A DNA stretch of 37,323 nt, taken from Nocardia ninae NBRC 108245 (GTDB lineage Bacteria > Actinomycetota > Actinomycetes > Mycobacteriales > Mycobacteriaceae). The stretch covers positions 1 through 37,323 of the forward strand of contig NZ_BJXA01000084.1 in NCBI RefSeq assembly GCF_007990755.1, read 5' to 3'. A program made the position numbers and the translations under genes. Under the pieces are notes generated by a model. That model made no database searches, was not told the origin of the DNA, and was given only the letters and a program-made list of their open reading frames with translations. Below, piece after piece: positions 1-18,711 of this stretch (its first letter is position 1; each line of letters starts with the position of its first letter).

Positions 1-3000
1 CCGCGCCGCCCCGACCCGACTGCCGCCGCGCCGCTCTCGGCCGCGCAGCAGCGGATCTGGTTCCTGGAGCAGCTTTTCCCGGATCGGGCGACCTACACCA
101 TGCCGCTGGCGCTTCGCCTGCGCGGCCACCTCGACGTCGCGGCCCTGCAGGGCGCGCTGTCGCTGGTCGTGGCCAGGCACGAGTCGCTGCGCACCAGCAT
201 CGAAGTGCGCGACGGTGTTCCGGTCCAGGTGGTCGGACCGGTGGCGCCCCTGCCGATGACCATGGTGTCCCCGGGGCAGCTCGATGCGGAACGACCGCTC
301 GCCGACGCGATCGCGCAGGTGGAGCAGTTCAGCCGGACCGTGTTCGACCTGTCCGGTCAGCTGGTCGAGGTGCTGCTGGTGCGGTTGAGCGAGGACGATT
401 CGATCTTCGCGGTCGCGATGCACCACATCATCTCCGACGGCTGGTCGCTCGGGGTGTTCGCCACCGAGCTGATGTCGGCCTATGCCGATCTGACCGCAGG
501 CAGGCACCAACCCGAATTGCCCGCCCTGCCATTGCAATACCCCGACTATGCGACGTGGCTCCAGGATCTCGCCCAGCAGGACAAGTTCGGCGCCGACCTC
601 GACTACTGGCGCGGCGTGCTCGGCGACGAACCGCCGCTGGTCACCTTCCATCCCGACCGCCCGCGCGCGCTCGAGCCGGAAAACCGCGGCGCCAGAGTGC
701 CGTTCATTATCCCGGCGCCGGTGCTGTCGGGGCTGCGGTACCTCGCCGACGAGGTCAGGGTGAACGATCGACCGGCCACCCTGTTCATCGCGCTGATGGC
801 GGGATTCAAAGCGCTGCTTCGCTATTACACCGGCGCGGAGGACATCACCGTCGGCACGCCCATCGCGGGCCGCAACCGGCCGGAGATCGAGCCGCTCATC
901 GGGTTCTTCGTCAACGCGCTCGCCTTGCGGACGGATCTGTCCGGTGCGCCGACGTTCCGCGAGCTGCTCGCCAGGGAACAGCGCGTCGTCTTCGACGCGT
1001 TCGACCACCAGGAGGCGCCGTTCGACCTCGTCGTCGAGCATGTGCGGCCCGATCGGGAACTCAGCCACTCGCCACTGTTCCGCACGGCCGTCGTGCTGCA
1101 GAACACCGCGCTCCCGGAACTCGCGATCCCCGGACTCAGCGCCGAATACGTCGAAGTCCATTCGGGCACTACCAAATTCGACGTGCTGGTTACTTTGCGT
1201 CAGGTCGGCGCGGAACTGGTCGGCGCCTTCGAATACGACGTCGATCTCTACGACGAGCCCACCGTCGTCGCCATCGCCCGGCACTTCGTCGCCCTGCTCA
1301 CCGCCGTGGTCGCCCAGCCCGACACCGCACTGCCGGAGCTGGACCTCCTCGAGCCGGCCGAGCGGGAACGCGCGCTGGCCGCGGCATTGCCCAGTGAGCC
1401 CGCCACCGAGCCAGCCCGGACGCTGCCCGAACTCTTCGCAGCGCAGGCGATCCAGACCCCCGACGCGGTGGCGCTCACCTTCGGCGACAGCGCACTGAGC
1501 TACGCCGAGCTGGCGGCCACCGCCGATCAGCTGGCGCAGCGCCTGCGCGCCCGCGGTGTCGGCCGCGGCTCGTTCGTCGGCATTCACCTCGAGCGGTCCG
1601 CCGAGGTGGTCGTCGCGATCCTCGCGGTGCTGCGGGCCGGCGCCGCCTATGTGCCGCTCGACCCGATGTATCCGGCCGACCGGATCGAGTTCATGATCGC
1701 GGATTCCGGTGCGCGGCTCGTGATCAGCCACAGCTCGCTGGTCTCGGCGGCGGCATCGGGCCCCGAGCTGCTGCTTATCGACCGGTCACCGGACGAGACC
1801 GTGCCCGATCTGCCGTTGGCGACGGCCGAACCGCACGATCCGTGCTACGTGATCTACACGTCGGGCTCGACCGGCGTCCCCAAGGGCGTGGTCATCGAGC
1901 ACGCCAATGTGGTTCGCCTGTTCGCCACCACCAGGCGCTGGTACGACTTCGGCCCGCAGGACGTGTGGACGATGTTCCACTCGTACTCCTTCGACTTCGC
2001 CGTCTGGGAGATGTGGGGCGCGCTGCTGTACGGCGGCCGATTGGTCGTGGTCCCCGGCTCGGTCAGCCGGTCCACCGCGGAGTTCGCCGAACTGCTTGCG
2101 CGCGAACAGGTCACGGTGCTCAACCAGACCCCGTCGGCGTTCACCCAACTGCTGCGTGCGCTGGAGAACGCACCGGGCACGGAGCTGTCGGTGCGCTGGG
2201 TGATCTTCGGTGGCGAAGCGCTCGATCTGTCCACGCTCACACCATGGTTCGACCGCTACGGCGAGTCCGCGCGGCTGGTCAACATGTACGGCATCACCGA
2301 GACGACCGTGCACGTCACCTATCGCGAGCTCACCCGCGCGGATGTGGTGTCGGCGGCGGGCAGCCTGATCGGTGTCCCACTGCCCGATCTGGGCGTGCTG
2401 ATCGTCGATCCGGCTGGTCGTCCAGTGCCTGACGGTGTGGCAGGGGAGATGCTGGTCTCCGGCCCAGGTGTCGGGCGCGGCTACCTGAACCGTGACGATC
2501 TCACCGCCGAACGTTTCGTGGAAAGCCCGGTGCTCGGCGGCCGCCGGGTCTACCGGACCGGTGATCTCGCCCGCCGCAGGGCCGACGGCGATCTCGAGTA
2601 CCTCGGCCGGATCGATCAGCAGGTCAAGGTGCGCGGCTTCCGCATCGAACTCGGTGAGATCGAGGCCGCGATCACCGCGCACCCGGGCGTCGACCAGTCG
2701 GTTGTGCTGGCGCGCAAGGACACCGGCGGAAACCTCTCTCTGGTCGCCTATTTCACCCCCGGCGACGCGGCCGCCGACGCGGCCGAGGCGGAACAGGACC
2801 AGGTCGCCAACTGGCAGATCGTCTTCAACAGCACCTACCGCCAAGGTCACGACGGTGCCGCCGATTTCGATATCTCCGGGTGGAACGACTCCTACACCAA
2901 CGCCGCCATCCCCGAGGAGCACATGCGGGAATGGGTCGAGGCCACCGTCGCCGCGGTGCGCACGCTCGCACCGCAGCGCGTCCTCGAAATCGGCTGCGGC

Positions 3001-5556
3001 ACCGGCCTGTTGCTGTCTCGGCTCGCACCGCAGTGCGCGGTCTACGACGCCACCGACGTCTCCGCCTCGGCCATCGAGAACGTGCGGACCAAGATTGTCG
3101 CGGGCAACCGGGATCTGGAGCACGTCCGGCTGGACCTGTGCGCCGCCGACGAACTGCCCTACGACGTCGCGGGCCCGTACGACGTCATCCTGATCAACTC
3201 GGTGGTGCAGTACTTCCCGAGCGCCGACTACCTGACCCGGGTGCTGGACTCGGTGGCCGGCCTGCTCGCCCCCGACGGCGTGCTGTTCGTCGGCGACGTC
3301 CGCGACCTCACGCTCAGCGAGTCGTTCCACGCGACCGTAGAGGCGACCAACGCGCCGTCCGCCGGTGCCGCCGAGCTCGCGCCTGCCGTGCGCGCCGCTC
3401 TCGACCGGGACGCCGAATTGGTCATCGCGCCACAATATTTCGAGGACTTCGTAGCCGCGCACCCGTCGCTGACCGGCTCCAGGATCCGGCTGAAGCGCGG
3501 CGAGCACCTCAACGAGATGTCCCGATTCCGCTACGACGCGGTGCTGTACGCGGGCGAGCGCGGACTACCGGTGCGCCCGAAACTGCTCGACGCCACGACA
3601 ACGCCGCAGCAGCTGGCGGACCTGCTAGAGCGCGACCGTCCCGCAGCGGTGCTGATCGCCGATGTTCTCGACGCGCGGGTAGCCGGTCCACTCGCGGTGG
3701 TCGCCGAGTTGCAGCGCGGCCGGGCCGGTGCGGCCCAGATCCGGGCCGCCCTCGCCGATTCCGGTGGCGTGAACCCGGAGGACTACCTGGCCCTCGCCGA
3801 TCGGCTGCCGTACCGCTTCGAGGCGCTGCGCCGCCCCGGCGGCCGATACGACGTCGTGGTGACCGGCTGGGACGTCCCCTTGCCGGCCATCCCGGCGGCC
3901 CGGGACGCCGAATGGCCGGACGATCTGGTCATCTCGGATCCCTTGCGCGTCAAGGCACGGGACGATCTGGTCGTCGATGTGCGTGCTCACCTGGCCCGGC
4001 GACTGCCGCAGCACATGGTGCCCGCCGCGGTGCTCGTGCTGGACGAATTCCCGTTGACCACCAACGGAAAACTGGACCGTCGCGCACTGCCCGCCCCGGT
4101 CCTGCGCCGCAACACCTTGGAGTACGAGCCGCCGCGCACCCCGCTGGAACAGCGGGTCGCGGGCGTCTTCGCCCACGTCCTCGGCATCCCGCGGGTGGGT
4201 CGCGAAGACAACTTCTTCGACCTCGGCGGTCACTCGCTGCTCGCGGCGCAGCTGATCCTGCGGCTGAAACAAACCTTCGGCGAAGACATTCCGCTCGGCT
4301 CGCTCTTCGCCCGGCCGACCGTGGCCGGTGTGGTCGCCCTGCTCGCCGGGGAGACCGCGGCGGAGGAAGCGATCGATCTCGAGGCCGAGGTGGCCACGGC
4401 GATCGAATCATGGCCCGCCGCACCGTGGACCGCCACCCCGCACAGCACGGGCGAGGTGCTGCTCACCGGCGCGACCGGCTTCGTCGGCGCCTTCCTGCTT
4501 CATGAACTCCTGGCACGCACCGATTCTCGCGTGCATTGCCTGGTGCGGGCGGACAGCAAAGAAGAGGGGCTGGCACGGCTGGCCGCCACCTTCGACAGCT
4601 ACGAACTGTCCCGCGTGGCGTTCGACCGGGTGATCCCCGTCCTGGGCGACCTGGCCGAGCCACGACTCGGGCTGTCCGAGAAGCAGTTCCTGCTGCTGGG
4701 CCGCACCATCGACGCGATCTACCACAACGGCGCGCAGGTGAACTTCGCGCTGCCGTACCGGGTGCTGGCGGCGGCCAACATCCAGGGCACCCAGGAGCTC
4801 ATCACGCTGGCCCGAACCAGCGGCGCGCCACTGCATTTCGTGTCCTCGCTGTATGTGCTCGGCCCGGGTGACGCGGTCGACGGCCGGGTCGCGGCACCGC
4901 TGCCCGCCCAGGACCCCACCCAGCTGTCGCTCGGCTATCTGCAGAGCAAGTGGGTGGCTGAACGTCTGGTCACCGAGGCGGGCGAGCGTGGCCTGCCGGT
5001 GAGCGTGTTCCGGCTCGGCCGCATCGGCGGTGACAGCCGCACCGGTGCCTGCCAGACCAGCGACTTCTTCTGGCTGCTGGTCAAGGCCAGCCAGGAGGTG
5101 GGTCTCGCGCCCGAGGTGGACTTCGCCGTCGACCTGGCCCCCGCCGACTTCACCGGCGCGGCCATGGTCGAACTGGCCCGCGACGCCGAACCGGGCACGC
5201 ACATCTACCACCTGCGCAACCCGCAGCCGTGCGGCTTCACCGACGCGATCGGCTGGCTGCGCGAAAGCGGCCGGCCGGTGCGCCTGGTCGCCCTCGACCA
5301 GTGGCGCGACGCGATCGCCGCGCACGCCGCGAGCGCGGGCCCGGGGTCGGCGTCCTTCAGCGTGCTGAGCCTGCTGAGCGCCAACGGCGGGCTCACCCCG
5401 CTGATCCAGTTCGACGTCGACCAGGCCGTCACCGCACTGGATTCGGTGGGCGTGCAGTGCCCGCCGGTCTCCCGTGACCTGTTCATCCGCTACCTGGATT
5501 ACTTCCGCAAGGTCGGCTTCCTCGCCGCGCCGTCACCACAGGAGGTCGGAGTATGA
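1..5556 (+). CDS. Nonribosomal peptide synthetase, C-A(N-MT)-T-R module, 5' end missing
   Basis: The frame is open from base 1, so the gene begins upstream. Residues below count from base 1. A condensation domain opens with motif C1 (AQQRIWF) and has the catalytic HHIISDG at 141-147. The adenylation domain has the ATP loop YTSGSTGVPKG (about 618) and A8 RGFRIELGEIE (about 878). An N-methyltransferase (SAM loop VLEIGCGTG near 994) is inserted between A8 and A10 (NGKLDRRAL, about 1354), the usual site for N-methylation. Aligning with GrsA gives pocket residues D665 F666 W669 N708 I735 G737 M762 V770 H771 K1356, i.e. DFWNIGMVHK, the established L-threonine code. The carrier serine is S1412 in LGGHSLL. 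The C-terminus is a thioester reductase (GATGFVG at 1490, Y1646-x3-K1650) in place of a thioesterase, so release should be NAD(P)H-dependent, giving an aldehyde or alcohol. Earlier modules may lie upstream. The stop overlaps the next start (ATGA). Confidence 0.95.
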   Translation, partial: PRRPDPTAAAPLSAAQQRIWFLEQLFPDRATYTMPLALRLRGHLDVAALQGALSLVVARHESLRTSIEVRDGVPVQVVGPVAPLPMTMVSPGQLDAERPLADAIAQVEQFSRTVFDLSGQLVEVLLVRLSEDDSIFAVAMHHIISDGWSLGVFATELMSAYADLTAGRHQPELPALPLQYPDYATWLQDLAQQDKFGADLDYWRGVLGDEPPLVTFHPDRPRALEPENRGARVPFIIPAPVLSGLRYLADEVRVNDRPATLFIALMAGFKALLRYYTGAEDITVGTPIAGRNRPEIEPLIGFFVNALALRTDLSGAPTFRELLAREQRVVFDAFDHQEAPFDLVVEHVRPDRELSHSPLFRTAVVLQNTALPELAIPGLSAEYVEVHSGTTKFDVLVTLRQVGAELVGAFEYDVDLYDEPTVVAIARHFVALLTAVVAQPDTALPELDLLEPAERERALAAALPSEPATEPARTLPELFAAQAIQTPDAVALTFGDSALSYAELAATADQLAQRLRARGVGRGSFVGIHLERSAEVVVAILAVLRAGAAYVPLDPMYPADRIEFMIADSGARLVISHSSLVSAAASGPELLLIDRSPDETVPDLPLATAEPHDPCYVIYTSGSTGVPKGVVIEHANVVRLFATTRRWYDFGPQDVWTMFHSYSFDFAVWEMWGALLYGGRLVVVPGSVSRSTAEFAELLAREQVTVLNQTPSAFTQLLRALENAPGTELSVRWVIFGGEALDLSTLTPWFDRYGESARLVNMYGITETTVHVTYRELTRADVVSAAGSLIGVPLPDLGVLIVDPAGRPVPDGVAGEMLVSGPGVGRGYLNRDDLTAERFVESPVLGGRRVYRTGDLARRRADGDLEYLGRIDQQVKVRGFRIELGEIEAAITAHPGVDQSVVLARKDTGGNLSLVAYFTPGDAAADAAEAEQDQVANWQIVFNSTYRQGHDGAADFDISGWNDSYTNAAIPEEHMREWVEATVAAVRTLAPQRVLEIGCGTGLLLSRLAPQCAVYDATDVSASAIENVRTKIVAGNRDLEHVRLDLCAADELPYDVAGPYDVILINSVVQYFPSADYLTRVLDSVAGLLAPDGVLFVGDVRDLTLSESFHATVEATNAPSAGAAELAPAVRAALDRDAELVIAPQYFEDFVAAHPSLTGSRIRLKRGEHLNEMSRFRYDAVLYAGERGLPVRPKLLDATTTPQQLADLLERDRPAAVLIADVLDARVAGPLAVVAELQRGRAGAAQIRAALADSGGVNPEDYLALADRLPYRFEALRRPGGRYDVVVTGWDVPLPAIPAARDAEWPDDLVISDPLRVKARDDLVVDVRAHLARRLPQHMVPAAVLVLDEFPLTTNGKLDRRALPAPVLRRNTLEYEPPRTPLEQRVAGVFAHVLGIPRVGREDNFFDLGGHSLLAAQLILRLKQTFGEDIPLGSLFARPTVAGVVALLAGETAAEEAIDLEAEVATAIESWPAAPWTATPHSTGEVLLTGATGFVGAFLLHELLARTDSRVHCLVRADSKEEGLARLAATFDSYELSRVAFDRVIPVLGDLAEPRLGLSEKQFLLLGRTIDAIYHNGAQVNFALPYRVLAAANIQGTQELITLARTSGAPLHFVSSLYVLGPGDAVDGRVAAPLPAQDPTQLSLGYLQSKWVAERLVTEAGERGLPVSVFRLGRIGGDSRTGACQTSDFFWLLVKASQEVGLAPEVDFAVDLAPADFTGAAMVELARDAEPGTHIYHLRNPQPCGFTDAIGWLRESGRPVRLVALDQWRDAIAAHAASAGPGSASFSVLSLLSANGGLTPLIQFDVDQAVTALDSVGVQCPPVSRDLFIRYLDYFRKVGFLAAPSPQEVGV

Positions 5557-7319
5557 CCACAACACTGCTCACCGGGGGCGCGCTCGAGTACGACACGTTG
5601 GTGCGCGCGCTGACCAACCAGGCCGCGCTGCGACCGGATCGGGTCGCGTACAGCTTCCTGCACTACCCGGATTCGTCGTCCCAGCACGGCGAGACCGAGT
5701 CGCTCACCTACGCCGAGATCGACCGTGCGGCACGGGCATATGCGGCCACCCTGCTCCAGGTCGCGCGCCCCGGCGACCGCGCGGTGCTGCTCCTTCCGCC
5801 GGGCCTGGAGTACGTGAAGGCGTTCTTCGGTTGCCTCTACGCCGGGATCATCGCGGTGCCGCTGTATCCGCCGAGCGCGCACAACTCCAACGGGCGCATC
5901 GACGCGGTCTGTGTCGACGCCGACCCGGCCTGCCTCGTCACCACCGACGGTGCACTGGCCAATGTGACTGCCTGGCTGGATAATTCGCCCACCGACACCA
6001 CCCGCCTCATCGTGACCACCGGCGAGGTGGACGAGAAGCTCGCGATCGACTGGGAACCCGTCCTGGTGGACCGCGAGCAGATCGCCCTGCTGCAATACAC
6101 GTCCGGCTCCACCCGCACGCCCGCCGGGGTGATGGTGCCGCATCGCGGACTGCTGGACAACGCCAGGCAGGTCTACGAAATGATGTATCACGTCGGCGTC
6201 TCCGCCGACGAGGAGGTCGGTTTCGTCAGCTGGCTGCCGCTGTTCCACGACATGGGCCTGATGGTCGGCGTGATCATGCCGATCATCAACGGCCATGGCG
6301 TGGTGCAGATGTCGCCGACATCGTTCCTGCGCAGGCCGCAGCGCTGGCTGCAGGCGATCAGCGACCACCCCGCGCAGGTCTTCGCGGCCTCGCCGAACGT
6401 CGGCTACGAGCTCTGCGCCGAACGTATCGGCCCCAAGGAGCTCGAAGGCATCGATCTGAGCCGGTGGCGGTATGCCCTGTCCGGCGCGGAGCCGGTGCGG
6501 GTCAGCACCATCGAGAAGTTCCATGCGGCCTTCGCCGACCACGGCCTGGCGCGGTCGAGCCTGATCGCCGGGTACGGGCTGGCGGAGTCGACGCTGATCG
6601 TGTCGGTGAACTGGCGAACCCTGTCCGGCGTGCAGACGCTCACGGTGGACCGCGAGGCGCTCGCCTCGGGCCAGGTGGTCGTCGCGCAGGACGGCGCGAG
6701 CATCGTCAGCGGCGGTGCCGCGGCGCCGGGCACCACCATCCAGATCGTGGATCCGGAGACCAGGGAGCCGCTGCCCGAGGACCGCCTCGGCGAGATCTGG
6801 GTCGCGGGCCCGGCCGTCTGCACCGGGTACTACAACCGGCCGGAGGAGACCGAACACACCTTCCGCGGCGAGCTCGCGCCGCGCGACGGCAAGTACTACC
6901 TGCGCACCGGCGACATCGGCTTCCTGCACGACGGCGAGGTCTATCCGACCACCCGGCTCAAGGACCTGATCATCATCGATGGCCGCAACTACTACCCGCC
7001 GGATCTGGAGGACGCCGCCGAGCAGGCGCACCCGCTGGTGCTGCCGGGTCGCTGCTCGGCGTTCTCCGTCGAGGTCGGTGTGCAGGAGAAGATCGTGGTG
7101 CTGATCGAGGCCAGGATCCCCAGCGACGACGAAGCCACCGCGCAAGCACTGCGAAACGCGGTGCGCCAGGCCATCTTCACCGTTCACGACGTCGGCGTGC
7201 ACGAGGTGGTGCTGCTCGGCCCCGGCGCGATCCCGCGCACGTCGAGCGGCAAGATCCAGCGTTCGGCCTCGCGCACCGCCTACCTCGACGGCACGCTCCG
7301 CTTGCCGGGTGCGAAGTGA
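5553..7319 (+). CDS. Fatty-acyl-AMP ligase (FAAL)
   Basis: A 588-residue ANL-superfamily enzyme closest in sequence style to the mycobacterial FadD32/FadD26 FAALs. It carries the phosphate loop YTSGSTRTPAGVMVPH (about 184-199), the FAAL-typical SWLPLFHDMGLM, GYGLAEST and the C-terminal lysine motif RTSSGKIQRSA. FAALs activate a long-chain acid with ATP and pass the acyl-adenylate to a carrier protein rather than to CoA. Here the acceptor could be the stand-alone ACP at 10010 or a carrier domain of the NRPS; the sequence does not decide. The ATG overlaps the NRPS stop by four bases and follows a strong AGGAGG, so translation is coupled. The gene implies that the cluster product carries a fatty acyl group. 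A mycolate-type role is less likely because no polyketide synthase is nearby. Confidence 0.93.
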   Translation: MTTTLLTGGALEYDTLVRALTNQAALRPDRVAYSFLHYPDSSSQHGETESLTYAEIDRAARAYAATLLQVARPGDRAVLLLPPGLEYVKAFFGCLYAGIIAVPLYPPSAHNSNGRIDAVCVDADPACLVTTDGALANVTAWLDNSPTDTTRLIVTTGEVDEKLAIDWEPVLVDREQIALLQYTSGSTRTPAGVMVPHRGLLDNARQVYEMMYHVGVSADEEVGFVSWLPLFHDMGLMVGVIMPIINGHGVVQMSPTSFLRRPQRWLQAISDHPAQVFAASPNVGYELCAERIGPKELEGIDLSRWRYALSGAEPVRVSTIEKFHAAFADHGLARSSLIAGYGLAESTLIVSVNWRTLSGVQTLTVDREALASGQVVVAQDGASIVSGGAAAPGTTIQIVDPETREPLPEDRLGEIWVAGPAVCTGYYNRPEETEHTFRGELAPRDGKYYLRTGDIGFLHDGEVYPTTRLKDLIIIDGRNYYPPDLEDAAEQAHPLVLPGRCSAFSVEVGVQEKIVVLIEARIPSDDEATAQALRNAVRQAIFTVHDVGVHEVVLLGPGAIPRTSSGKIQRSASRTAYLDGTLRLPGAK

Positions 7320-8275
7320 CCACCGCCCTCGCCCCGCACGGCGACAAGCTGACCTGCTTCACCGCGGCGTTGGCCAGCGCGCTCGTGGCCCGCGGCGAAA
7401 CCCGGTGGTGGCGGCCGCTGCTCGCGGGCGGCCCGACGCTCGCGGTGAGCCCCGCCGAGGACGATCTGCTGCTGTTCGAGCACGACGCCACCCCGCCGCT
7501 GCCCGCCCTCGGCCTCCGGGTGAACGGCACGGACGACTGGGCGACGGCCTATCACGCGCTCGAAGAGCAAGTGGCCGAGCGCGGTTCGGTGGTCCTGCTC
7601 GCCGACATCTTCCACCTGCCGTGGCAGCACGGCTACCAGCGCTGGCACGCCCCGCACTGGCTCGCCATCGTCGAGACCCTCGACGGCTGGGTGGTGGAAG
7701 ACCCGCTCACGATGACCACCGAGCTCGGCAAGCAAGCCGGGCAACGGGTTCCGGTGCTCTCGGCGGGGGAACTGCGCGACTGGTCGGTGGGTCTCGGCGC
7801 GGACGACACCGTCGCACTGCTGCGAGAACGAGCGATGGCCGGTTCCAACGCGATTCATGCCGGCCGGACCTACCGGTGGCTCGAATCCCATCCGGTCGCG
7901 CCGCTGTCGCCGCGCGAGGACCGTCTCGTCGGCGGCGACGCACTGGTGGCGCTGGCCAGCCGCTACCAGTTCGCCGCGACACCGGACGATTTCACGCAGC
8001 TGGACGATCTGTGGCAGGCACTTCGCCAGCGCGAACTGCTGCTCTGGGCGGCCGACCTCGATCCCGAGCTGCTCGATGCCGATGGTCGCGACCACTGGGA
8101 ACGCGCGGTGACGCAATGGCGCAAACTGCCGCCGCTGCTGATGCACGCGAGGATGCGCGCCGCCGGCGGCCGCACCGTGCACACCGCGCACATCGCCGAA
8201 ACTTTGCTGTCACTGGCCGAATTCGAAGGCAAGCACCTGGCCTTCGCACACCGTCCCCGTACGGAGGGGGAGTAG
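7316..8275 (+). CDS. BtrH-like papain-fold protein, putative ACP-to-amine acyltransferase
   Basis: A 319-residue protein starting at GTG that overlaps the FAAL stop (GTGA); no in-frame ATG gives a better start. The N-terminal ~130 residues look like the BtrH_N/C39-like fold: Cys14 in a KLTCFTAALA segment at the start of a helix, HAPHWLAIV with His114, and WVVEDPLT with Asp129, spaced as a Cys-His-Asp triad. The C-terminal half is helical and Trp/Leu-rich, comparable to the DUF4872-like half of BtrH proteins. In butirosin biosynthesis BtrH moves an ACP-bound acyl side chain onto an aminoglycoside amine. By analogy this protein could transfer an acyl group from the adjacent ACP to an amine or hydroxyl of the peptide. 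Fold recognition is by eye from short motifs, so function is an inference; a thioesterase or peptidase role is also possible. Confidence 0.65.
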   Translation: MTTALAPHGDKLTCFTAALASALVARGETRWWRPLLAGGPTLAVSPAEDDLLLFEHDATPPLPALGLRVNGTDDWATAYHALEEQVAERGSVVLLADIFHLPWQHGYQRWHAPHWLAIVETLDGWVVEDPLTMTTELGKQAGQRVPVLSAGELRDWSVGLGADDTVALLRERAMAGSNAIHAGRTYRWLESHPVAPLSPREDRLVGGDALVALASRYQFAATPDDFTQLDDLWQALRQRELLLWAADLDPELLDADGRDHWERAVTQWRKLPPLLMHARMRAAGGRTVHTAHIAETLLSLAEFEGKHLAFAHRPRTEGE

Positions 8276-8277
8276 CC

Positions 8278-10020
8278 ATGGCGACCGATGTGGCAGTAGA
8301 GCTTTCACCCGCCGACGGCTACGTGACGTGGACGCAGCGGGCGAAGGCGCTTGCGCGCGAGCCCGGTACGCCCGCCGTCGCGGTGCGGATGGCACTGCTG
8401 GCCACCTACACCACCGACTTCCTCGCCGAACTGCTGCCGGTGGCAGGCGCCAGGGCCGGGTTGACGCCGGAACTGCTGTCGTTTCCGTTCGGTCAGGTCG
8501 AGCAGGTACTGCTCGCGCCCCAAACACCGTTCCGCGAGGGCGATTACGTGGTGCTGGCCGGTACGCACCACGACATCACCGGCACGGTGGACGAGACCGT
8601 CAACCGCTGGGTCGGCCTCTGGGACGCGGCCGCGCGCTCCGGTGTCCGGGTCGTCCAGCTTGGTTTCGCGCCGCCCGCGGTGGACGCTTACGGCCCGGCG
8701 GCCTGGCGCGCGCCGCAATCGCTGTCCCATCGGGTTCGGGAAGTCAACGCCCGGCTCGCCGAACATGCCGCGGGCCGAGTGCTTTTCGTCGACGTCGAGC
8801 AGCTGGCCGCCCAGGTCGGCTTGCGGCAGTGGGAAGACCCGCGCAGCTGGTACCGCGTCCGCCAGCCGTACGCACCGGACAGCCTGCCCTGGCTCGCCGC
8901 GGCCATCGCCGACACCATCGCCGCCGACCGTGGCCGTTCGGCGCGCTGCGTGGTCGTCGACCTGGACGGCACCCTGTGGGGCGGCATCCTCGGCGACGAC
9001 GGCATCGACGGCATTCGCGTCGGCACCGGCGCGGACGGCGAGGCGTTCGCCGACTTCCAGCGCTACCTGCGCGCACTGACCGAGCGCGGCGTGCTGCTCG
9101 CGGTGGCCAGCAAGAACGATCGTGACCTCGCACTGCGCGCCATCGCAGAAGCCCCGGGCATGGTGCTCCGGGTCGAGGACTTCACCCACATCGTCGCCGA
9201 CTGGCGGCCCAAATCCGAACAGCTGCAAGAAATCTCGGACAAGATCCGGCTCGGCCTGTCGAGTTTTGTGTTCGTGGACGACAATCCGGCCGAATGCGCC
9301 CAGGTCGCCGCGGCACACCCGGAGGTGCGCGCGCTGTGCCTGCCCGCGTCCGCCGCGAAGTTCGCCCCCGAACTGGCGGCGCTGCCGTGGCTGCACCCGG
9401 GCTCGCTGTCCAGCGAGGACTTCACCAGACAGCGCTCCTACCAGGCCCTCGCCGCCGCCGAGCGGACCGCGACGGACAACCTCGACGAGTTCCTGGCCGG
9501 TCTGGAGATGGTGGCCACCATCGAGCCGATCAACAGCACCACCCTCGACCGGGCGGCGCAGCTGATCGCCAAGACCAACCAGTTCAACCTGACCACCCGC
9601 AGGCACACCCAGACCCAGGTCCGCAAGATCGCCGAGGACCCACAGTGGTTCGCAGCCACGCTGCGCCTGCGGGACCGCTTCGCCGATCACGGCATCGTCG
9701 GTGTGCTGCTCGCTGAAGACCTCGGCGGCACCGTCGAGATCGACACGCTGCTGCTCAGCTGCCGGGTGATCGGGCGGAACGTGGAGAACAATCTGCTGGC
9801 CGCCGCCGCCGAATGGGCGCTGGCACAGGGCAGTTCGCGACTGGTGGGCCGGTATCTGCCGACCGCCCGCAACGCGCTGGTGCGCGATCTGTACCCCGGG
9901 CAGGGCTTCGCGCTGGACGCGGAGTCCGAGCAGGGGTCGGTGTTCGGTTACGACCTTTCGGGCGGCGTGCCCGCACGCAGCCCGCATGTGCGAGAGGCGC
10001 AGGTGCAACATGGCTACTGA
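8278..10020 (+). CDS. FkbH-like HAD protein, glyceryl(acyl)-ACP synthase
   Basis: A 580-residue protein starting at ATG with a GGAGGGGG ribosome site just upstream. It has three parts: an N-terminal SGNH-like/unknown region (1-220), a HAD phosphatase domain (D228-x-D230-GTLWGGILGDDG, motif II VASKND, lysine in WRPKSEQ, motif IV FVDDNPAE), and a C-terminal GNAT-like domain (NQFNLTTRR, then CRVIGRNVENNLL). This is the FkbH layout. FkbH enzymes take 1,3-bisphosphoglycerate, dephosphorylate it and load the glyceryl group on an ACP, as in methoxymalonyl-ACP and tetronate pathways. The very next gene is an ACP, the expected partner. The methoxymalonyl partners (FkbG methyltransferase and the two dehydrogenases) and any polyketide synthase are absent from the window, so the three-carbon unit probably has another fate. 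Related enzymes can also load lactyl-type groups. Confidence 0.9.
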   Translation: MATDVAVELSPADGYVTWTQRAKALAREPGTPAVAVRMALLATYTTDFLAELLPVAGARAGLTPELLSFPFGQVEQVLLAPQTPFREGDYVVLAGTHHDITGTVDETVNRWVGLWDAAARSGVRVVQLGFAPPAVDAYGPAAWRAPQSLSHRVREVNARLAEHAAGRVLFVDVEQLAAQVGLRQWEDPRSWYRVRQPYAPDSLPWLAAAIADTIAADRGRSARCVVVDLDGTLWGGILGDDGIDGIRVGTGADGEAFADFQRYLRALTERGVLLAVASKNDRDLALRAIAEAPGMVLRVEDFTHIVADWRPKSEQLQEISDKIRLGLSSFVFVDDNPAECAQVAAAHPEVRALCLPASAAKFAPELAALPWLHPGSLSSEDFTRQRSYQALAAAERTATDNLDEFLAGLEMVATIEPINSTTLDRAAQLIAKTNQFNLTTRRHTQTQVRKIAEDPQWFAATLRLRDRFADHGIVGVLLAEDLGGTVEIDTLLLSCRVIGRNVENNLLAAAAEWALAQGSSRLVGRYLPTARNALVRDLYPGQGFALDAESEQGSVFGYDLSGGVPARSPHVREAQVQHGY

Positions 10021-10258
10021 TCTGATGGAACAGTTGCTCGAGCTGTTCGCCGAGGTGGTCGGCGAGCCGGCCGCACACGGCCCCGACACGGTCCGCGCGG
10101 ACATGGACACCTGGGACTCGCTCGCCCAGGTGCGGCTGGTCTACGCGGTGGAACGCGCCTTCGGCGTGGAACTTCCGGAGCGCACGCTCACCTCGGAGCC
10201 GTCGCTGGCCGAGATCGCCGCCATCGTGGCGGCCGCACGGCAGGAGCGGGTGTCATGA
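10010..10258 (+). CDS. Stand-alone acyl carrier protein
   Basis: An 82-residue ACP beginning MATDLMEQLLELF. I chose ATG 10010 over the in-frame ATG at 9986 because a GAGAGGCG ribosome site lies between the two. It overlaps the end of the FkbH gene by 11 bases. The pantetheine site is the serine of DTWDSLAQVRLV, followed by the usual acidic helix AVERAFGVELPE. In FkbH systems the dedicated ACP lies directly beside the loading enzyme, so this is the likely carrier of the glyceryl-type group. The FAAL could also charge it. A phosphopantetheinyl transferase is not encoded in the window and would act in trans. Confidence 0.92.
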   Translation: MATDLMEQLLELFAEVVGEPAAHGPDTVRADMDTWDSLAQVRLVYAVERAFGVELPERTLTSEPSLAEIAAIVAAARQERVS

Positions 10259-11802
10259 ACAGCAGGGTGTTCCGGGTTACCGATACCGATGTGGCGACCT
10301 ACGCCGCTGCGGTCGGCGATCGGAACCCGCTGCACGTGGACAACGACTTCGGCCACCGCTCGCCGTACGGCAGGCCGGTCGCGCACGGCGCACTGGTGGT
10401 CACTCTGGCGCTGGCCGCGCTGGCCGAGACCACCGATCCGATGGCGGTGCGTGATATCCGGGCGACGTTCCGGCAGCCCACGATTCCCGGCCGTCGCTAC
10501 GAGGTCGACTGGACGGTGTCGGAGAGCGAGGCCCGCGGCCGGGTCAGCTTCGGCGGCATCGAGGTGGTCGGCATCCGATGCAGGCTCGGCTCGGTGCTGC
10601 CGTGGTGCGGCCCCGCCGCCGAGGACGAGCCGCGCCGTGATGCCCCGCGAGTACTCGGATTGGCCGATGTGGCAGGCGATTCCGCGCAGTCACCCGGCCA
10701 GGAGCGCGGTTCGTACTCGGTGGACTATCCGCTCATCGCGGGACTCGTGTCGCGGGTCATCGGCGGTCGCGTTCCCGAACATGTTGCGGCGGTGCTCGGT
10801 TGGGCCAGCTACTGGACCGGCATGTGCACGCCGGGCCGGGACGCCCTGCTCGTCGCCTGCACCGTGGTGTTGCACGGATCCGGTTCCGGCGCCGTCGCAT
10901 TCGAGACCGCCGAACCCGAGGTGGACCGGCGATCCGGGCTCGTCACCTTGCGTGCGGGCATGCGCTGCGGCGCCAGTGCCGACGTCACGGTGCAGAGTCT
11001 GATCAGGGAGTCGGTGCCCGGCCCGGACCCGGCCGAACTCGCCGCGGTGCTGCCGCCGTCGGACACGCTGGCCGGGCGCACCATCCTGGTCGTCGGCGGT
11101 AGCCGCGGGCTCGGTGCCGCGGTCTCACTGGGTTTGGCGAGCCAGGGTGCGCGCGTGCTGGTGAGCTGCACCCGGGCGCCCGAGGTGCTCGCGTCGGCCT
11201 CGCACGCCTACCGGGATCGCTTGTGGCCGGTGCTCGCCGACGCCAGCGACGGGTACGCGCTGGGCGCGGCATTGCCGGAAGGCCCCCTGGATGGCGTGGT
11301 TCTGCTTGCCGCACCGGCCATTCCAACGCTGCCGCTGGCACCGGACGCGGTCGAAACCGCCGCGCAGTTCATGGCGGCGAGCACCCGGCTGGTCTTCGCT
11401 CCGCTGTCGGTGTGCGTGCCCCGGCTCCGCAAAGGAGCGACCGTGGTGATGATCTCCTCGGAGGCGGTACTCGCGCCACCGCGCTGGTGGCCGCACTACG
11501 CGGCGGCCAAGGCTGCCGTCGAGGGTCTCGCGGAATACGTTGCGCGACACCATCCCTGGAACGTCGTGGTGGTACGGCCACCGCGACTCTGGACCGACCT
11601 GACGAACACGCCGGGCGGACGAGCCGTGAGCAATCCCATCGCACCGGTCGCCGCCGACATCGTCAACGCGTTCTCCGCGCAAGACGTTGTCGCCGGGGAA
11701 GTCTCGGTGCTCGGCGCCGCCGGTTGGGGCGCACCATGGCCAATTCTGAGTGAGGAGGTGCGGGATGCTGGAGATCGCCGACCTGAACAAGTCGTACGGT
11801 AG
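10255..11802 (+). CDS. MaoC-like hydratase / short-chain dehydrogenase fusion
   Basis: A 515-residue two-domain protein whose ATG overlaps the ACP stop (ATGA). The N-terminal ~120 residues carry the R-hydratase signature: YAAAVGDRNPLHVDNDF followed by PVAHGALVV, with the Asp/His pair of MaoC hotdog hydratases. Residues 130-270 are a second, degenerate region that may be a catalytically silent hotdog. The C-terminal ~240 residues are a Rossmann SDR with a GGSRGLGAA cofactor loop (about 282), a catalytic-serine region VVMISSEAV and Y-x-x-x-K in HYAAAKAA. MaoC enzymes add or remove water at a 2-enoyl thioester and SDRs interconvert keto and hydroxy groups, so together they could process the beta-carbon of a carrier-bound acyl chain. 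Substrate unknown. No ketosynthase is present to make a beta-keto intermediate, which makes its job unclear. Confidence 0.85.
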   Translation: MNSRVFRVTDTDVATYAAAVGDRNPLHVDNDFGHRSPYGRPVAHGALVVTLALAALAETTDPMAVRDIRATFRQPTIPGRRYEVDWTVSESEARGRVSFGGIEVVGIRCRLGSVLPWCGPAAEDEPRRDAPRVLGLADVAGDSAQSPGQERGSYSVDYPLIAGLVSRVIGGRVPEHVAAVLGWASYWTGMCTPGRDALLVACTVVLHGSGSGAVAFETAEPEVDRRSGLVTLRAGMRCGASADVTVQSLIRESVPGPDPAELAAVLPPSDTLAGRTILVVGGSRGLGAAVSLGLASQGARVLVSCTRAPEVLASASHAYRDRLWPVLADASDGYALGAALPEGPLDGVVLLAAPAIPTLPLAPDAVETAAQFMAASTRLVFAPLSVCVPRLRKGATVVMISSEAVLAPPRWWPHYAAAKAAVEGLAEYVARHHPWNVVVVRPPRLWTDLTNTPGGRAVSNPIAPVAADIVNAFSAQDVVAGEVSVLGAAGWGAPWPILSEEVRDAGDRRPEQVVR

Positions 11803-12724
11803 GAAACAGGTCCTCACCGGTATCGATCTGACCGTGCGGCCCGGCGAGATCGTCGGACTGCTCGGCCCCAACGGCGCGGGCAAGACCACGACGGCCTCGA
11901 TCGTCTCCGGGCTGACCGCCGCGGATTCCGGCACGGTGCGCATCGACGGCATCGACATCCGCAGCAAGCCACGCCAGGCGCGCCGCAAGCTCGGCCTCGC
12001 GCCGCAGGAGCTCGGCGTGTACCCGACACTGACCGCCGAGGAGAACCTCATCTTCTTCGGCAGGCTGATGGGTGTCGGTCGCAAGGACCTGACCGCGCGC
12101 ATAGCGGAGGTCGGCGAGCGGCTCGGCGTCACACCCTTCTTACAGACGCGGGCGCACCAACTCTCCGGTGGCCAGCAGCGGCGACTGCATACGGCGATGG
12201 CGTTGCTGCACGAGCCGGATGTCCTGTGGCTGGACGAACCGACGGTCGGCGCCGATGTTTCGGCGCGTCAGGACCTGCTCGCCGAGGTGCGCAACCTGGC
12301 CGACCAGGGTGCCGCCGTCGTGTACGCGACGCACTATCTGCCCGAACTCGAGGTGCTCGACGCGCGAGTGGTCGTGCTGCACGAAGGCCGAATCCTGGCG
12401 CAGGGCAGTGCCTCGGATCTGGTGGAGGAGTACGCGCAGGCGGCGGTGAGCCTCGAGTTCTCGGCGGCCATCCCCGCGAGCCTCGGCGGGTTCCTCGCCG
12501 CGCCCGGCGCCGCGGTGCTGGAGTCGAAGCGATTGAACATTCCGACCAACACCCCGGGACAGCTGCTCGCGCAGTTGTTCGCCACCTTGGACACCGACAC
12601 CGACCAGCTGCTGGCCGCGGAGATCCATCACCCGAATCTGGAAAACGCCTACTTGGCGATCATGCGCGCAGCGCAGGACGCGGTCGACCAGCCCGTGGAA
12701 GGAATCCGAGATGCTGTTGCATGA
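11765..12724 (+). CDS. ABC transporter ATP-binding subunit (DrrA-like)
   Basis: A 319-residue ATPase. I chose ATG 11765 because GAGGAGGTG lies seven bases before it; the frame extends upstream to 11750. It overlaps the MaoC-SDR gene by 38 bases. Walker A is GPNGAGKTT (34-42), the signature is LSGGQQRRL and Walker B is VLWLDEPTVGADV, with a C-terminal extension after the nucleotide-binding domain as in DrrA/NodI-type drug exporters. It should energise the membrane subunit encoded next. Its place as the tail of a biosynthetic operon suggests export of the product, and so possible self-protection. Confidence 0.93.
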   Translation: MLEIADLNKSYGRKQVLTGIDLTVRPGEIVGLLGPNGAGKTTTASIVSGLTAADSGTVRIDGIDIRSKPRQARRKLGLAPQELGVYPTLTAEENLIFFGRLMGVGRKDLTARIAEVGERLGVTPFLQTRAHQLSGGQQRRLHTAMALLHEPDVLWLDEPTVGADVSARQDLLAEVRNLADQGAAVVYATHYLPELEVLDARVVVLHEGRILAQGSASDLVEEYAQAAVSLEFSAAIPASLGGFLAAPGAAVLESKRLNIPTNTPGQLLAQLFATLDTDTDQLLAAEIHHPNLENAYLAIMRAAQDAVDQPVEGIRDAVA

Positions 12725-13499
12725 CTCTGCCGTCGATCGGGTGCGCGCGTTGTCCTGGGCGGATCTGCGCCGCATCCGCTCCGATCCGGCCCAGCTGATC
12801 GTGATGATGGTGCTGCCCATCGGCATGATGGCGTTCCTGACTCCCGCGAACCGGGCGCAGTTGCGGTTGACCGGATACTTCGACGCCACCGGTATCGAGC
12901 AGTCGGGACCGGGCACGATCGTGCTGTTCGCGTTCTTCATCACGACGCTGCTCGGCGCCTCGTTCTTCCGCGAACACGAGTGGGGGACCTGGGATCGGTT
13001 GCGGGCCGCGCCGGTGCGCGCAGTGGAGGTGATCCTCGGGAAGTCGTTCCCGTCCGTGCTGTTCTCGGTGTTCCAGCTGACCTTCTTGTGGTTGGTCGCG
13101 TTCACACTGTGGGACCTGCACAGCAAGGGTTCGACCTGGCTGCTCGTTCCGCTCACCGCGTCGCTCGCCGTCGCGACCTGGGGATTCGGCATCGCCCTCG
13201 TCTCGCTGTGCCGGACCATCGATCAGCTCGCGATCATGGCGCAGGTCGGCTCACTCGCCATCGGTGGTCTCGCCGGCACGATCACCCCGCGCGACACCCT
13301 GCCCGCGTGGGCCCGCGCGTTGTCGCCGTACACGCCGCAGTACTGGGCGCTGAAGGGATATCAGGACGTCATCTTGCACGGCGCCGGCTTCGGCGACATC
13401 GTCAAGCCGTGCTTGATCCTGCTCGCCGTCGGCGTCGCGGGCGGACTGGTCGCCCTGTTCAAATTCCGGCTCAACCACAGCAAGGTCGGCCGGAGCTGA
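12711..13499 (+). CDS. ABC-2 type transporter permease (DrrB/NodJ-like)
   Basis: A 262-residue inner-membrane protein whose ATG lies inside the end of the ATPase gene (14-base overlap), after a GGAAGGAA ribosome site. About six hydrophobic segments are visible, near residues 23-40, 65-82, 110-135, 145-170, 175-195 and 225-250. The motif EWGTWDRLRAAPV after the second segment is the conserved ABC-2 linker. PAWARALSPYTPQYWALKGYQD before the last segment is typical of the DrrB family. It pairs with the preceding ATPase to form an exporter. It is the last gene of the operon; only four bases separate it from the convergent gene that follows, so no dedicated terminator fits between them. Confidence 0.92.
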   Translation: MLLHDSAVDRVRALSWADLRRIRSDPAQLIVMMVLPIGMMAFLTPANRAQLRLTGYFDATGIEQSGPGTIVLFAFFITTLLGASFFREHEWGTWDRLRAAPVRAVEVILGKSFPSVLFSVFQLTFLWLVAFTLWDLHSKGSTWLLVPLTASLAVATWGFGIALVSLCRTIDQLAIMAQVGSLAIGGLAGTITPRDTLPAWARALSPYTPQYWALKGYQDVILHGAGFGDIVKPCLILLAVGVAGGLVALFKFRLNHSKVGRS

Positions 13500-16826: not shown

Positions 16827-18578
16827 TCAGCGTCGATGGACCTCGACTGCGGCGCGCACGCCACTTTCCAAGGCGCCTTGGATCCACGCGGTGTCGAGGC
16901 TGGTGTGGTCACCGGCGAAATGTGTTCTGCCTTCGACCGTTCGGGTGGCGCTGTGGTGGTCGTGCAGTTGGCCGGGGGTGGGGATGGCGGCCTCGCCGAG
17001 CGCGTAGCGGGCGCGCACCCAGCTCTGGGTCAGGCCGACGCCGGTGAATTCGGTGTCCACCCGCGGGCCGAACAGTTCGCGCAGCCCGGCCATCGCGAAG
17101 TGGATCCGTTCGCCCTCGGTGAGCGAATCCCAGCGCATCGCATCGTCGGCGAAGGTGTAGGACGCCAGCACCACGCCGCCGTCGGAATCCTCGACGTGCG
17201 AGGGGAAATAGAGGTTCCGGCTCGGCGAATCCGTGATGCAGCGGCCGCCGCGGAACCCGGTCGGTCCCTGCTCCCAGAAGCGAGTCTTGAACTCCAGCAA
17301 TACTTTTGTCGCCGCGTCGTGGTGCAGTTCGATGATGGCCCGGCGCTTGCCGTAGGACAGTGGCGGGTCGAAGGTGCAGAAGCGGGCGGCGGTGAGCGGG
17401 ATGGCCACGATCGCGTAATCGGCCTCGAACGACTCGACCGGACCGGTCGGCTGACCGTCGGAGCTCTCGTCGCCGGTCTCACCGGTGGTCCAGACCCGTA
17501 CGCCGTGCTCGGTCTGTTCCAGCCGGGTCATTCGCTTACCCATCAGGATGGCGGGCCCGAGTCGCGCGGTCAGGGCGTCGGTGAGCGAGGCCATGCCGCC
17601 CGCCAGTTCCCAGTAGGTCGCATCGGACGGGATCAGCGTGTGATCGACGAGCGGGAAGACGACGCTGTGCCGCAGGCGAGCGGTCAGGTTCTCCAGCGTG
17701 CCGACCGCCTCGATACGTTCCTTCGGCCAGCCCTGCTCCCTGAGATAGCGTCGCAGGGAATGGTTTTCGTAGGTGTGCAGCAACTCCGTCCATCCCTCGA
17801 CCTGCCGCTCGATCGGCTGGTCGGCCAGCAGCGCGACCTGACGCAACGCGGCACCGAGGACTTGCCGGCTGGCGGCCGGCAATCCGCAGCCGAAGCCCGC
17901 GTGCACCGCACCCGGGTTCGCGGCGTATTCGCCTCGGGTGGTGGTGATTCCGTTGACCCTGATCAGACCGCGCCCGGCCGCGGGCGGTGGCACGTAACGC
18001 TGCCTCGGCCCATTGGACCACTCCTCGCCGGTGCGCGATCGATAGAACACCGGGGGAGTCGCGGGAGTGGGCGTTTCCACGAGCACGTCGGAGTTGTAGA
18101 ACGGCCTGCGCGGCACCCCGAGCTTGTCCGCGAGCGCCAACACCATCGGGTGCGCACTGGACAACCGCATCGCGCCCGCCTCGGCGTGCAGGGCAGGATC
18201 GGTGAAGACGCCACGAAAAGTCTTGACCCGCCCACCCGTTCGATTCCCGTTGGCCTCCAGCACCGTGACCTGATGCCCGGCTTCGGCCAGCAGATTCGCC
18301 GCGCTCAACCCCGCAGGCCCGGCCCCGACGACAATGATCTTCTTGCGCCGATCCGTCGCAGGCAGACCGGTATCGACGAGGATCTTCAGGTAGTCCAGCG
18401 TGCGGTCGTTTCCGTTCTCATCGACCCCGAGCAGCTGCCGGGCGAGCGCTGCACTGCGGTCACGCCCGGCGTTCTCGGAAGCGGCCGGCGCGCACGCCGT
18501 CGCCGCAACAGCGCCGGAAGCGACGGCCCCCAGGGCGCCGCGCATCAGACGGCGCCGCGAAACTCTACTCTCTGCCAA
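16827..18578 (-). CDS. Tat-exported FAD-dependent amine/L-amino-acid oxidase
   Basis: A flavoprotein of the monoamine/L-amino-acid oxidase family. I chose the TTG start at 18578 because GGGAGG sits seven bases upstream; an in-frame ATG at 18614 lacks a ribosome site and would add 12 residues. From TTG it is 583 aa. A twin-arginine signal SRRRLMRGALG followed by an Ala-rich core and ATACAPAASE predicts folded export, perhaps with a lipid-anchored cysteine. The FAD-binding loop is VVGAGPAGLSAANLL with VLEANGNRTGGRVKTF. The conserved C-terminal flavin segment is HFAGDHTSLDTAWIQGALESG. These enzymes oxidise an amino acid or amine to the keto acid or aldehyde with H2O2 and ammonia. Substrate unknown. 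Confidence 0.9.
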   Translation of the reverse strand: MAESRVSRRRLMRGALGAVASGAVAATACAPAASENAGRDRSAALARQLLGVDENGNDRTLDYLKILVDTGLPATDRRKKIIVVGAGPAGLSAANLLAEAGHQVTVLEANGNRTGGRVKTFRGVFTDPALHAEAGAMRLSSAHPMVLALADKLGVPRRPFYNSDVLVETPTPATPPVFYRSRTGEEWSNGPRQRYVPPPAAGRGLIRVNGITTTRGEYAANPGAVHAGFGCGLPAASRQVLGAALRQVALLADQPIERQVEGWTELLHTYENHSLRRYLREQGWPKERIEAVGTLENLTARLRHSVVFPLVDHTLIPSDATYWELAGGMASLTDALTARLGPAILMGKRMTRLEQTEHGVRVWTTGETGDESSDGQPTGPVESFEADYAIVAIPLTAARFCTFDPPLSYGKRRAIIELHHDAATKVLLEFKTRFWEQGPTGFRGGRCITDSPSRNLYFPSHVEDSDGGVVLASYTFADDAMRWDSLTEGERIHFAMAGLRELFGPRVDTEFTGVGLTQSWVRARYALGEAAIPTPGQLHDHHSATRTVEGRTHFAGDHTSLDTAWIQGALESGVRAAVEVHRR

Positions 18579-18711
18579 TCCCCAACCTCCCGCACCGTGG
18601 AGCCGCTCCGCCATGACGGCCGCAGACGGTACCCGAATCCGCAGGCCCCACCGGTGAGCTCGACCCCCCGGCCGGTGGCAAGGGCGATTCGTGGCAGATG
18701 CGCACTGCCAG

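Follow-up and report, generated by a model that had tools for sequence, protein, structure and literature searches.

A conserved hybrid polyketide synthase-nonribosomal peptide synthetase cluster of Nocardia with an FkbH cassette predicted to supply a lactyl unit

FkbH proteins are classic suppliers of hydroxymalonyl- and methoxymalonyl-ACP (ACP, acyl carrier protein), and the BtrH, CcbD, and CtaG enzymes provide a family precedent for the movement of acyl groups to amines. A glycerate dehydratase/ketoreductase starter pathway, with dehydration of glycerate and reduction of an alpha-ketone, was reportedly described by He and colleagues in 2014, as the title of that work has it. The lankacidin starter, as published, is lactoyl- or pyruvoyl-ACP derived from 1,3-bisphosphoglycerate, and the passages of PMC8443760 that treat lankacidin assign it to plasmid pSGRIFU1 of Streptomyces griseofuscus. 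According to the relevant sections of PMC8949500, FkbH domains replace adenylation (A) domains in vioprolide and cystomanamide biosynthesis, and vioprolide also combines a fatty-acyl-AMP ligase (FAAL) with an ester-forming condensation (C) domain. Here we analyzed a 37,323-base stretch of Nocardia ninae NBRC 108245 (the window), which is the whole of contig C84 in a host genome of 9.7 Mb and 204 contigs, and which opens with a gene run holding a FAAL, a BtrH-like protein, an FkbH protein, a discrete ACP, and a fused MaoC dehydratase-short-chain reductase (MaoC-SDR). We assign a probability of roughly one half to the reading that this run belongs to a hybrid polyketide synthase (PKS)-nonribosomal peptide synthetase (NRPS) cluster for a fatty-acylated compound ending in N-methylthreonine (as aldehyde or alcohol), in which a lactyl group from FkbH and MaoC-SDR would be delivered by the BtrH-like protein, most likely to PCP1, the first peptidyl carrier protein (PCP) of NRPS2.

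The gene run under study begins at window base 1, which is the end of the contig. The initial annotation described eight coupled genes read in the same direction from an NRPS to an ATP-binding cassette (ABC) exporter, and all eight were confirmed in place, coupled and with intact motifs. The genes lie on a single strand, all overlapping or touching, as follows (HMM, hidden Markov model; R, reductase domain).

1..5556, plus strand: NRPS, C-A(Thr)-N-methyltransferase-PCP-reductase, 5' end beyond the contig (Pfam; domain HMMs on a relative; R motif)
5553..7319, plus strand: fatty-acyl-AMP ligase, FAAL (AMP-binding and FAAL-type models, below NCBIfam cut-offs)
7316..8275, plus strand: putative BtrH/CcbD/CtaG-type cysteine acyltransferase with invariant C14, H114, and D129 (triad, predicted fold)
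8278..10020, plus strand: FkbH glyceryltransferase/phosphatase with a DLDGT motif (TIGR01686 above cut-off; PDB relative 3slr)
10010..10258, plus strand: discrete acyl carrier protein with the WDSL serine, partner of FkbH (PP-binding model)
10255..11802, plus strand: fused MaoC dehydratase-short-chain reductase, catalytic D/H and S/YxxxK intact (Pfam, motifs)
11765..12724, plus strand: ABC exporter ATPase, DrrA-like (Pfam and NCBIfam models)
12711..13499, plus strand: ABC exporter permease, DrrB-like (Pfam and NCBIfam models)

The junctions pair the NRPS stop at 5556 with the FAAL start at 5553, the FAAL end at 7319 with the BtrH-like GTG at 7316, the BtrH-like end at 8275 with the FkbH ATG at 8278, and the FkbH end at 10020 with the ACP ATG at 10010; the ACP (10258) is followed by MaoC-SDR (10255), MaoC-SDR (11802) by the ATPase ATG at 11765, and the ATPase (12724) by the permease (12711). 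The PP-binding, MaoC plus SDR, ABC ATPase, and permease matches passed the Pfam cut-offs.

The upstream half of the cluster was located on another contig of the host, C57. The first 948 residues of PKS1 from the relative G156 had a 98% match on C57, and when each contig was placed separately on the G156 sequence, C57 ended 19 bases from the point where C84 starts; by the same comparison, the first 28 residues of the window NRPS lie on C57 and in the gap. The region C57:47865-60039 carries a CAAX-protease-like gene, PKS1 (ACP-KS-AT-ACP; KS, ketosynthase; AT, acyltransferase), NRPS2 (C-PCP-C-A-PCP), and PKS3 (KS-AT-ACP). The cluster has two KS-AT modules on C57, and the lack of a ketosynthase noted in the initial annotation was only apparent because the contig breaks at window base 1. 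The full line reads ACP-KS-AT-ACP / C-PCP (A-less)-C-A-PCP / KS-AT-ACP / C-A(Thr)-NMT-PCP-R (NMT, N-methyltransferase), followed by FAAL, BtrH-like, FkbH, ACP, MaoC-SDR, and the ABC exporter. An identical order was found in the relatives G156, G008, G035, G021, G012, and G075, with the first gene and the N-terminal ACP matched in part only in G021. That first gene, encoding a CAAX-protease-like membrane protein (PF02517; C57:47865-48701, L072:2866-3702), opens the cluster in all 7 genomes (a half-match in G021) and perhaps has a self-protection role. Tandem 21/42-base and 24-base arrays were observed in the NRPS2 and PKS3 linkers of G035 (L018:5246-5564 and 12100-12231); they encode A-G-x-x-G-E-like repeats, and the NRPS2 linker is ~300 residues longer than that of G156.

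Among 150 genomes of the genus, the BtrH-like protein was present in 16, the host included. Its gene lies between FAAL and FkbH in 15 of the 16 loci, counting the window, and beside FkbH only in the Nocardia metagenome-assembled genome (MAG) G143. The other 14 FAAL-BtrH-FkbH loci are 59-99% identical to the window, so that a run adjacent in 15/16 loci at such identities is not due to chance. Among 396 genomes drawn from the phylum, one other, G724, had a relative at E <= 1e-10, a distant one. Scanning of named genomes with the BtrH-like alignment revealed 11 loci, in N. suismassiliense (97% identity), N. colli, N. altamirensis, N. brasiliensis (two records), N. vulneris, N. transvalensis, N. 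pseudobrasiliensis, Nocardia sp. CDC159, a Nocardia MAG, and Antrihabitans cavernicola. Of these 11, 9 have all genes of the stretch that extends from PKS3 through the exporter.

Under the reading favored here, FAAL would prime the first PKS by attaching a fatty acid to its N-terminal ACP, the first KS-AT-ACP would add one two-carbon unit, the A-less C1-PCP1 module would take a three-carbon hydroxy acid, C2-A-PCP2 would add one amino acid, and the second KS-AT-ACP would add a further two-carbon unit. The window NRPS would then add N-methylthreonine, the chain would be released by reduction, and the ABC pair would export the product. For the three-carbon unit, FkbH would make glyceryl-ACP on the discrete ACP from 1,3-bisphosphoglycerate, and the MaoC domain would remove water to give pyruvyl-ACP, the glyceryl 3-OH being a beta-hydroxyl. 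The SDR domain would reduce pyruvyl-ACP to lactyl-ACP, and the BtrH-like protein would move the lactyl group via its catalytic Cys, most likely to PCP1, yielding an ester-linked (depsi-) unit. In this scheme, we infer the substrates, the lactyl identity, the acceptor, the collinear order, and the product.

The last module and the fatty-acyl start were assigned as follows. Pfam models identified condensation, AMP-binding, methyltransferase, PP-binding, and thioester reductase domains in the window NRPS, with the methyltransferase placed between the A subdomains of the Thr module and the HHIISDG motif of its C domain intact. The A code, with positions set by landmarks of the PheA numbering and a tenth residue (K) that was appended rather than read, was DFWNIGMVHK in 5/7 clusters and DFWNVGMVHK in 2/7, both of which we take to specify threonine. 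As a control, the NRPS of the lankacidin side was read from this alignment too and showed DILQLGMIWK, presumably a glycine code, as expected for lankacidin. The R domain scored 315.8 bits with TIGR01746 (cut-off 213.35), and its TGATGFVG and YxxxK motifs are intact in 7/7 clusters, the window included. The A code together with the methyltransferase domain, and the intact YxxxK, bear out the N-methylthreonine unit and the reductive release that had been proposed; a Dieckmann-type release was considered, and reduction was preferred since the R domain retains the reductase motif. The FAAL models gave strong matches yet below the NCBIfam cut-offs (PRK05850, 493.3 of 775), and these family matches uphold the earlier call of a FAAL-primed lipopeptide. 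The first PKS of the host genome has an N-terminal ACP with a TSA serine, the carrier for the fatty acid alongside FAAL. The discrete ACP was disfavored as the FAAL partner, because the first PKS owns this N-terminal ACP; the discrete ACP adjoins FkbH also where no FAAL was seen.

FkbH of the window scored 274.7 bits with TIGR01686 (cut-off 146.65), and it has a relative among solved structures (PDB 3slr, E 4.3e-38). A discrete ACP lies beside FkbH at 10010-10258 and likewise at the S. griseofuscus locus (L088), where MaoC-SDR, ACP, FkbH, and a PQQ protein are located between an LkcA-like NRPS-PKS gene and a lankamycin-like cluster with sugar, P450, and glycosyltransferase genes. The GD-N-LH and YxxxK motifs of MaoC-SDR are intact in both the window protein and its lankacidin-side homologue. 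The proposal that FkbH with its own ACP is the source of a three-carbon unit stood; MaoC-SDR had been left unexplained, and it is this protein, part of the trio also found at the lankacidin locus, that points to lactyl-ACP. The MaoC-SDR and the lankacidin-side trio therefore make lactyl-ACP supply, not methoxymalonyl supply, the best reading. The route from glyceryl through pyruvyl to lactyl on a carrier is described chemistry, and we infer its use in the Nocardia cluster from homology at 31-35% identity. The BtrH-linked FkbH and MaoC-SDR proteins each form a single clade (100/100 and 94/94), as would be expected for a cassette.

We consider it very improbable that the FkbH unit provides a hydroxy- or methoxymalonyl-ACP extender for the upstream PKS modules. 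This is the classic FkbH role, and the AT of the first PKS has a YAFH motif in 5/7 clusters; however, HAFH occupies that place in the other 2/7, and the second AT has HAFH in 6/7 clusters, those where the search pattern matched. For this reason, nothing was concluded from YAFH as an unusual feature. An upstream methoxymalonyl pathway, which the initial annotation had raised as a possible contradiction, was looked for, and no acyl-CoA dehydrogenase, 3-hydroxyacyl-CoA dehydrogenase, or O-methyltransferase gene was found in the cluster or in the nine upstream neighbors scanned; such supply was rejected since the partner genes (FkbI/FkbK-type dehydrogenases and FkbG O-methyltransferase) were missing there. 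By contrast, one other FkbH gene of the host (L091; 355 aa) is methoxymalonyl-like, directly following an acyl-CoA dehydrogenase gene beside a PKS. It is one of three further host FkbH genes on contigs C2, C13, and C18 (L091, L092, and L093); another encodes ~630 aa and, accompanied by an ACP, neighbors a free A-PCP protein, and the remaining one forms part of a PKS/NRPS protein (C-FkbH) that has a PCP and R-domain protein as its neighbor.

MaoC-SDR proved rare: across the order, 6 of 397 genomes had it at E <= 1e-40, and across the class, a profile detected it in 4 of 394 at E <= 1e-60, the host included in each case. With residues 1-195 of the G1221 protein as query, a search of plasmids returned 20 records, of which 7 matched along more than 80% of this query. 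The other 13 matched partially, over the MaoC part, and were left out of the count; the plasmid places counted were S. griseofuscus, S. anulatus, Ensifer canadensis, and one of three S. atratus records, NBC_01224 being G1221. FkbH was encoded within ~2 kb of MaoC-SDR in 8 of 12 places outside Nocardia (G315, G490, G483, G479, G1221, and S. griseofuscus, with fused proteins in S. anulatus and Ensifer). Because the ten genomes checked contain 1-4 FkbH matches each, one match being below cut-off, this adjacency is unlikely to be due to chance. The FkbH partners of MaoC-SDR occupy several places on the FkbH tree with at least three changes, and the link therefore arose or persisted across FkbH subfamilies. 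These data bear on the possibility that the cassette delivers glyceryl itself and that MaoC-SDR acts elsewhere, e.g., on PKS beta-keto groups. Such a division of labor would agree with the absence of ketoreductase and dehydratase domains by Pfam from either PKS of G035, and the vioprolide line, in the sections of PMC8949500 concerned, has FAAL and FkbH together with glycerate replacing an amino acid. However, MaoC-SDR adjoins FkbH in other types of cluster, and two plasmid PKSs carry them as a fusion, so that MaoC-SDR seems part of the FkbH unit rather than of the PKS, and we regard glyceryl delivery as improbable.

Several of these places have further features. On the Ensifer canadensis and S. 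anulatus plasmids (L089 and L090), PKS proteins begin with MaoC-SDR-FkbH before the first KS, like lactyl loading modules. In G1174, C169 (L087) ends within a MaoC-SDR frame and C38 (L096) begins within an FkbH-KS frame; the FkbH of the latter groups with the fused S. anulatus FkbH (99/98), and the two pieces may be one more fused loading module split by a contig break. FkbH, ACP, and MaoC-SDR accompany a C-A-PCP NRPS in G315 (L054/L055) and G490 (L056/L057), and G315 also encodes a DAHP synthase, a chorismate-binding/glutamine-amidotransferase fusion, and a pre-ATP-grasp protein.

For the acceptor of the lactyl group, attention centers on NRPS2, which begins with C1-PCP1 and has a single A3 motif, after C2, in 7/7 clusters. 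The HHLVLDG motif of C1 and the LGGTS(L/I) motif of PCP1 with its serine are kept in all seven. FkbH is here a free protein rather than a domain inside an NRPS module, the module itself being C-PCP, and because this module is A-less, PCP1 must be loaded by something if it is functional. The A code of NRPS2 was DALH[AG]GLVAK, for which the amino acid could not be named. The earlier idea that both acyl groups converge on N-methylthreonine was not supported, as the Thr module closes the line; the upstream C-PCP module, being A-less, is the more likely site for the three-carbon unit. In G143, a BtrH-FkbH-ACP-MaoC/SDR cassette precedes a different NRPS; the second protein of this NRPS has as its first module a C-PCP unit retaining the C-terminal A subdomain only (two condensation, two PP, two AMP-binding_C, and one AMP-binding domains by Pfam). 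In the two NRPS settings that were found, the BtrH-like cassette accompanies an internal C-PCP module that is A-less, and in places with the trio, without the BtrH-like gene, and with an NRPS showing a C domain (G315, G490, G1221, and S. griseofuscus), an A domain is present in each module. This correlation suggests lactyl loading of PCP1 by the BtrH-like protein, and formation by C1 of an ester with the fatty beta-ketoacyl chain. In the C-domain tree, C1 formed its own class, distinct from C2 and from the C domain of the Thr module (100/100 each); use of the tree to identify an ester-forming type was abandoned, with the C domain of the G143 A-less module unplaced.

The BtrH-like protein of the window matched BtrH_N at 25.5 bits, below the Pfam cut-off of 29.7, and sub-threshold matches were obtained for 14/14 homologues (best E 1.7e-5). 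The Cys-His-Asp triad (C14, H114, and D129) is invariant in the BtrH-like proteins, and the predicted fold resembles CcbD, CtaG, and AziU3 at 10-17% identity in structural alignments; in a sequence search, the BtrH-like alignment matched no solved structure. At the level of triad and predicted fold, the BtrH-type acyl transfer proposed earlier is supported. We tentatively propose, at rather less than even odds, that this protein is an inter-carrier transacylase that would move lactyl from the free ACP onto the PCP of the A-less module, as part of a portable four-gene FkbH-ACP-MaoC/SDR-BtrH lactate-insertion cassette in at least two Nocardia NRPS lines. A somewhat unlikely alternative retains the same lactyl-ACP supply but has the BtrH-like protein form an amide, in line with the family precedent, by placing lactyl or glyceryl onto an amine, either in the product or in a small-molecule partner, with PCP1 either loaded in trans by another A domain or idle. 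No free amine is predicted in the chain, however, unless the NRPS2 residue brings one, and the pairing of the cassette BtrH-like genes with A-less modules in both NRPS contexts, against the A domains of the four BtrH-less trio loci with an NRPS C domain, also weighs against amide formation.

Several observations weigh against lactyl delivery to PCP1. To our knowledge, characterized BtrH-like relatives act on amines or in aziridine formation, and hence we know of no citable precedent for transfer to a PCP thiol. The correlation with A-less modules rests on two NRPS contexts, and the C domain of the G143 A-less module does not group with C1 (a weak fork). The distant BtrH homologue of G724 is in a locus with an ordinary C-A-PCP protein, and a lone BtrH-like gene in Antrihabitans (57%) lies beside a transposase near a contig end, without FkbH (L045). 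Identity to the lankacidin-side proteins is low (31% for FkbH; 35% over 501 positions for MaoC-SDR), the window FkbH has DLDGT vs DCDNT at the lankacidin side and falls in a separate clade (100/100), and the window MaoC-SDR groups in the tree with those of G430 and G479, not with that of lankacidin. DLDGT was dropped as a special feature, since DLD occurs also in other FkbHs. MaoC-SDR was seen without FkbH nearby in G430 (60 kb scanned), G1193 (16.5-kb contig), G1174 (20 kb, with the gene running into the contig end), and S. atratus (12.5 kb, annotation only); the G430 MaoC has Tyr in place of the catalytic His.

Nine proteins encoded downstream at 13504-37321 of the window were scanned and are apparently unrelated to the cluster. 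They include a flavin amine oxidase (16827-19019, minus strand), a luciferase-like monooxygenase (19446), an ADP-ribosylglycohydrolase (20406), a divergent AsnC regulator/EamA transporter pair (22541/23057), a PLD-like protein (26616), an Na/H exchanger (32551), and a carboxylesterase (34847).

Based on these results, we concluded that the cluster is real and conserved and combines known parts in a new arrangement; its genes, architecture, conservation, intact motifs, and predicted fold, and the trio common with the lankacidin locus, are observed. No description of such a cluster was found in the literature searched, most subscription journals, MIBiG, and antiSMASH lying outside that search, and FkbH is not mentioned in the main text of a Nocardia survey (PMC7413640). 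Delivery by a BtrH-like enzyme to an A-less module would be a new step, if shown. Hydroxy acids would then enter nonribosomal peptides from glycolysis via a free transferase, an insertion that could not be read from A domains and that is possibly movable between lines. MaoC-SDR beside FkbH is a marker that may separate lactyl from methoxymalonyl supply in genome mining, and several Nocardia species have here a conserved lipopeptide cluster for which no known product was found.

The lankacidin locus (pSGRIFU1 of S. griseofuscus; pSLA2-L of S. rochei in papers) similarly has discrete FkbH, ACP, and MaoC-SDR near an NRPS-PKS, but the unit is a starter there; HMMs detected no BtrH-like gene, A-less module, or R domain in 40.6 kb of it, and no FAAL is among its annotated genes. 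The pathway of He et al. 2014, compared by title rather than by sequence, shares glycerate dehydration and alpha-ketone reduction but concerns starter unit biosynthesis. The BtrH, CcbD, CtaG, and AziU3 enzymes share with the Nocardia protein the predicted fold, the Cys-His-Asp triad, and an adjoining carrier protein, whereas the Nocardia protein is linked to FkbH and FAAL and is distant from them in structural alignments, as given above. FAAL-primed lipopeptide clusters (daptomycin relatives, in the parts of PMC9113097 concerned) likewise use a FAAL and a carrier for the fatty-acyl start, but for Nocardia we propose entry of the fatty acid into a PKS module, and N-methylthreonine, reductive release, and the FkbH cassette set the Nocardia line apart. 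In vioprolide and cystomanamide, FkbH also supplies a hydroxy acid instead of an amino acid, as a domain within the module, and neither MaoC-SDR nor a BtrH-like enzyme is mentioned in the corresponding sections of the source. By analogy, the Nocardia cluster would resemble these systems while relying on free enzymes and including a dehydratase-reductase and a transferase.

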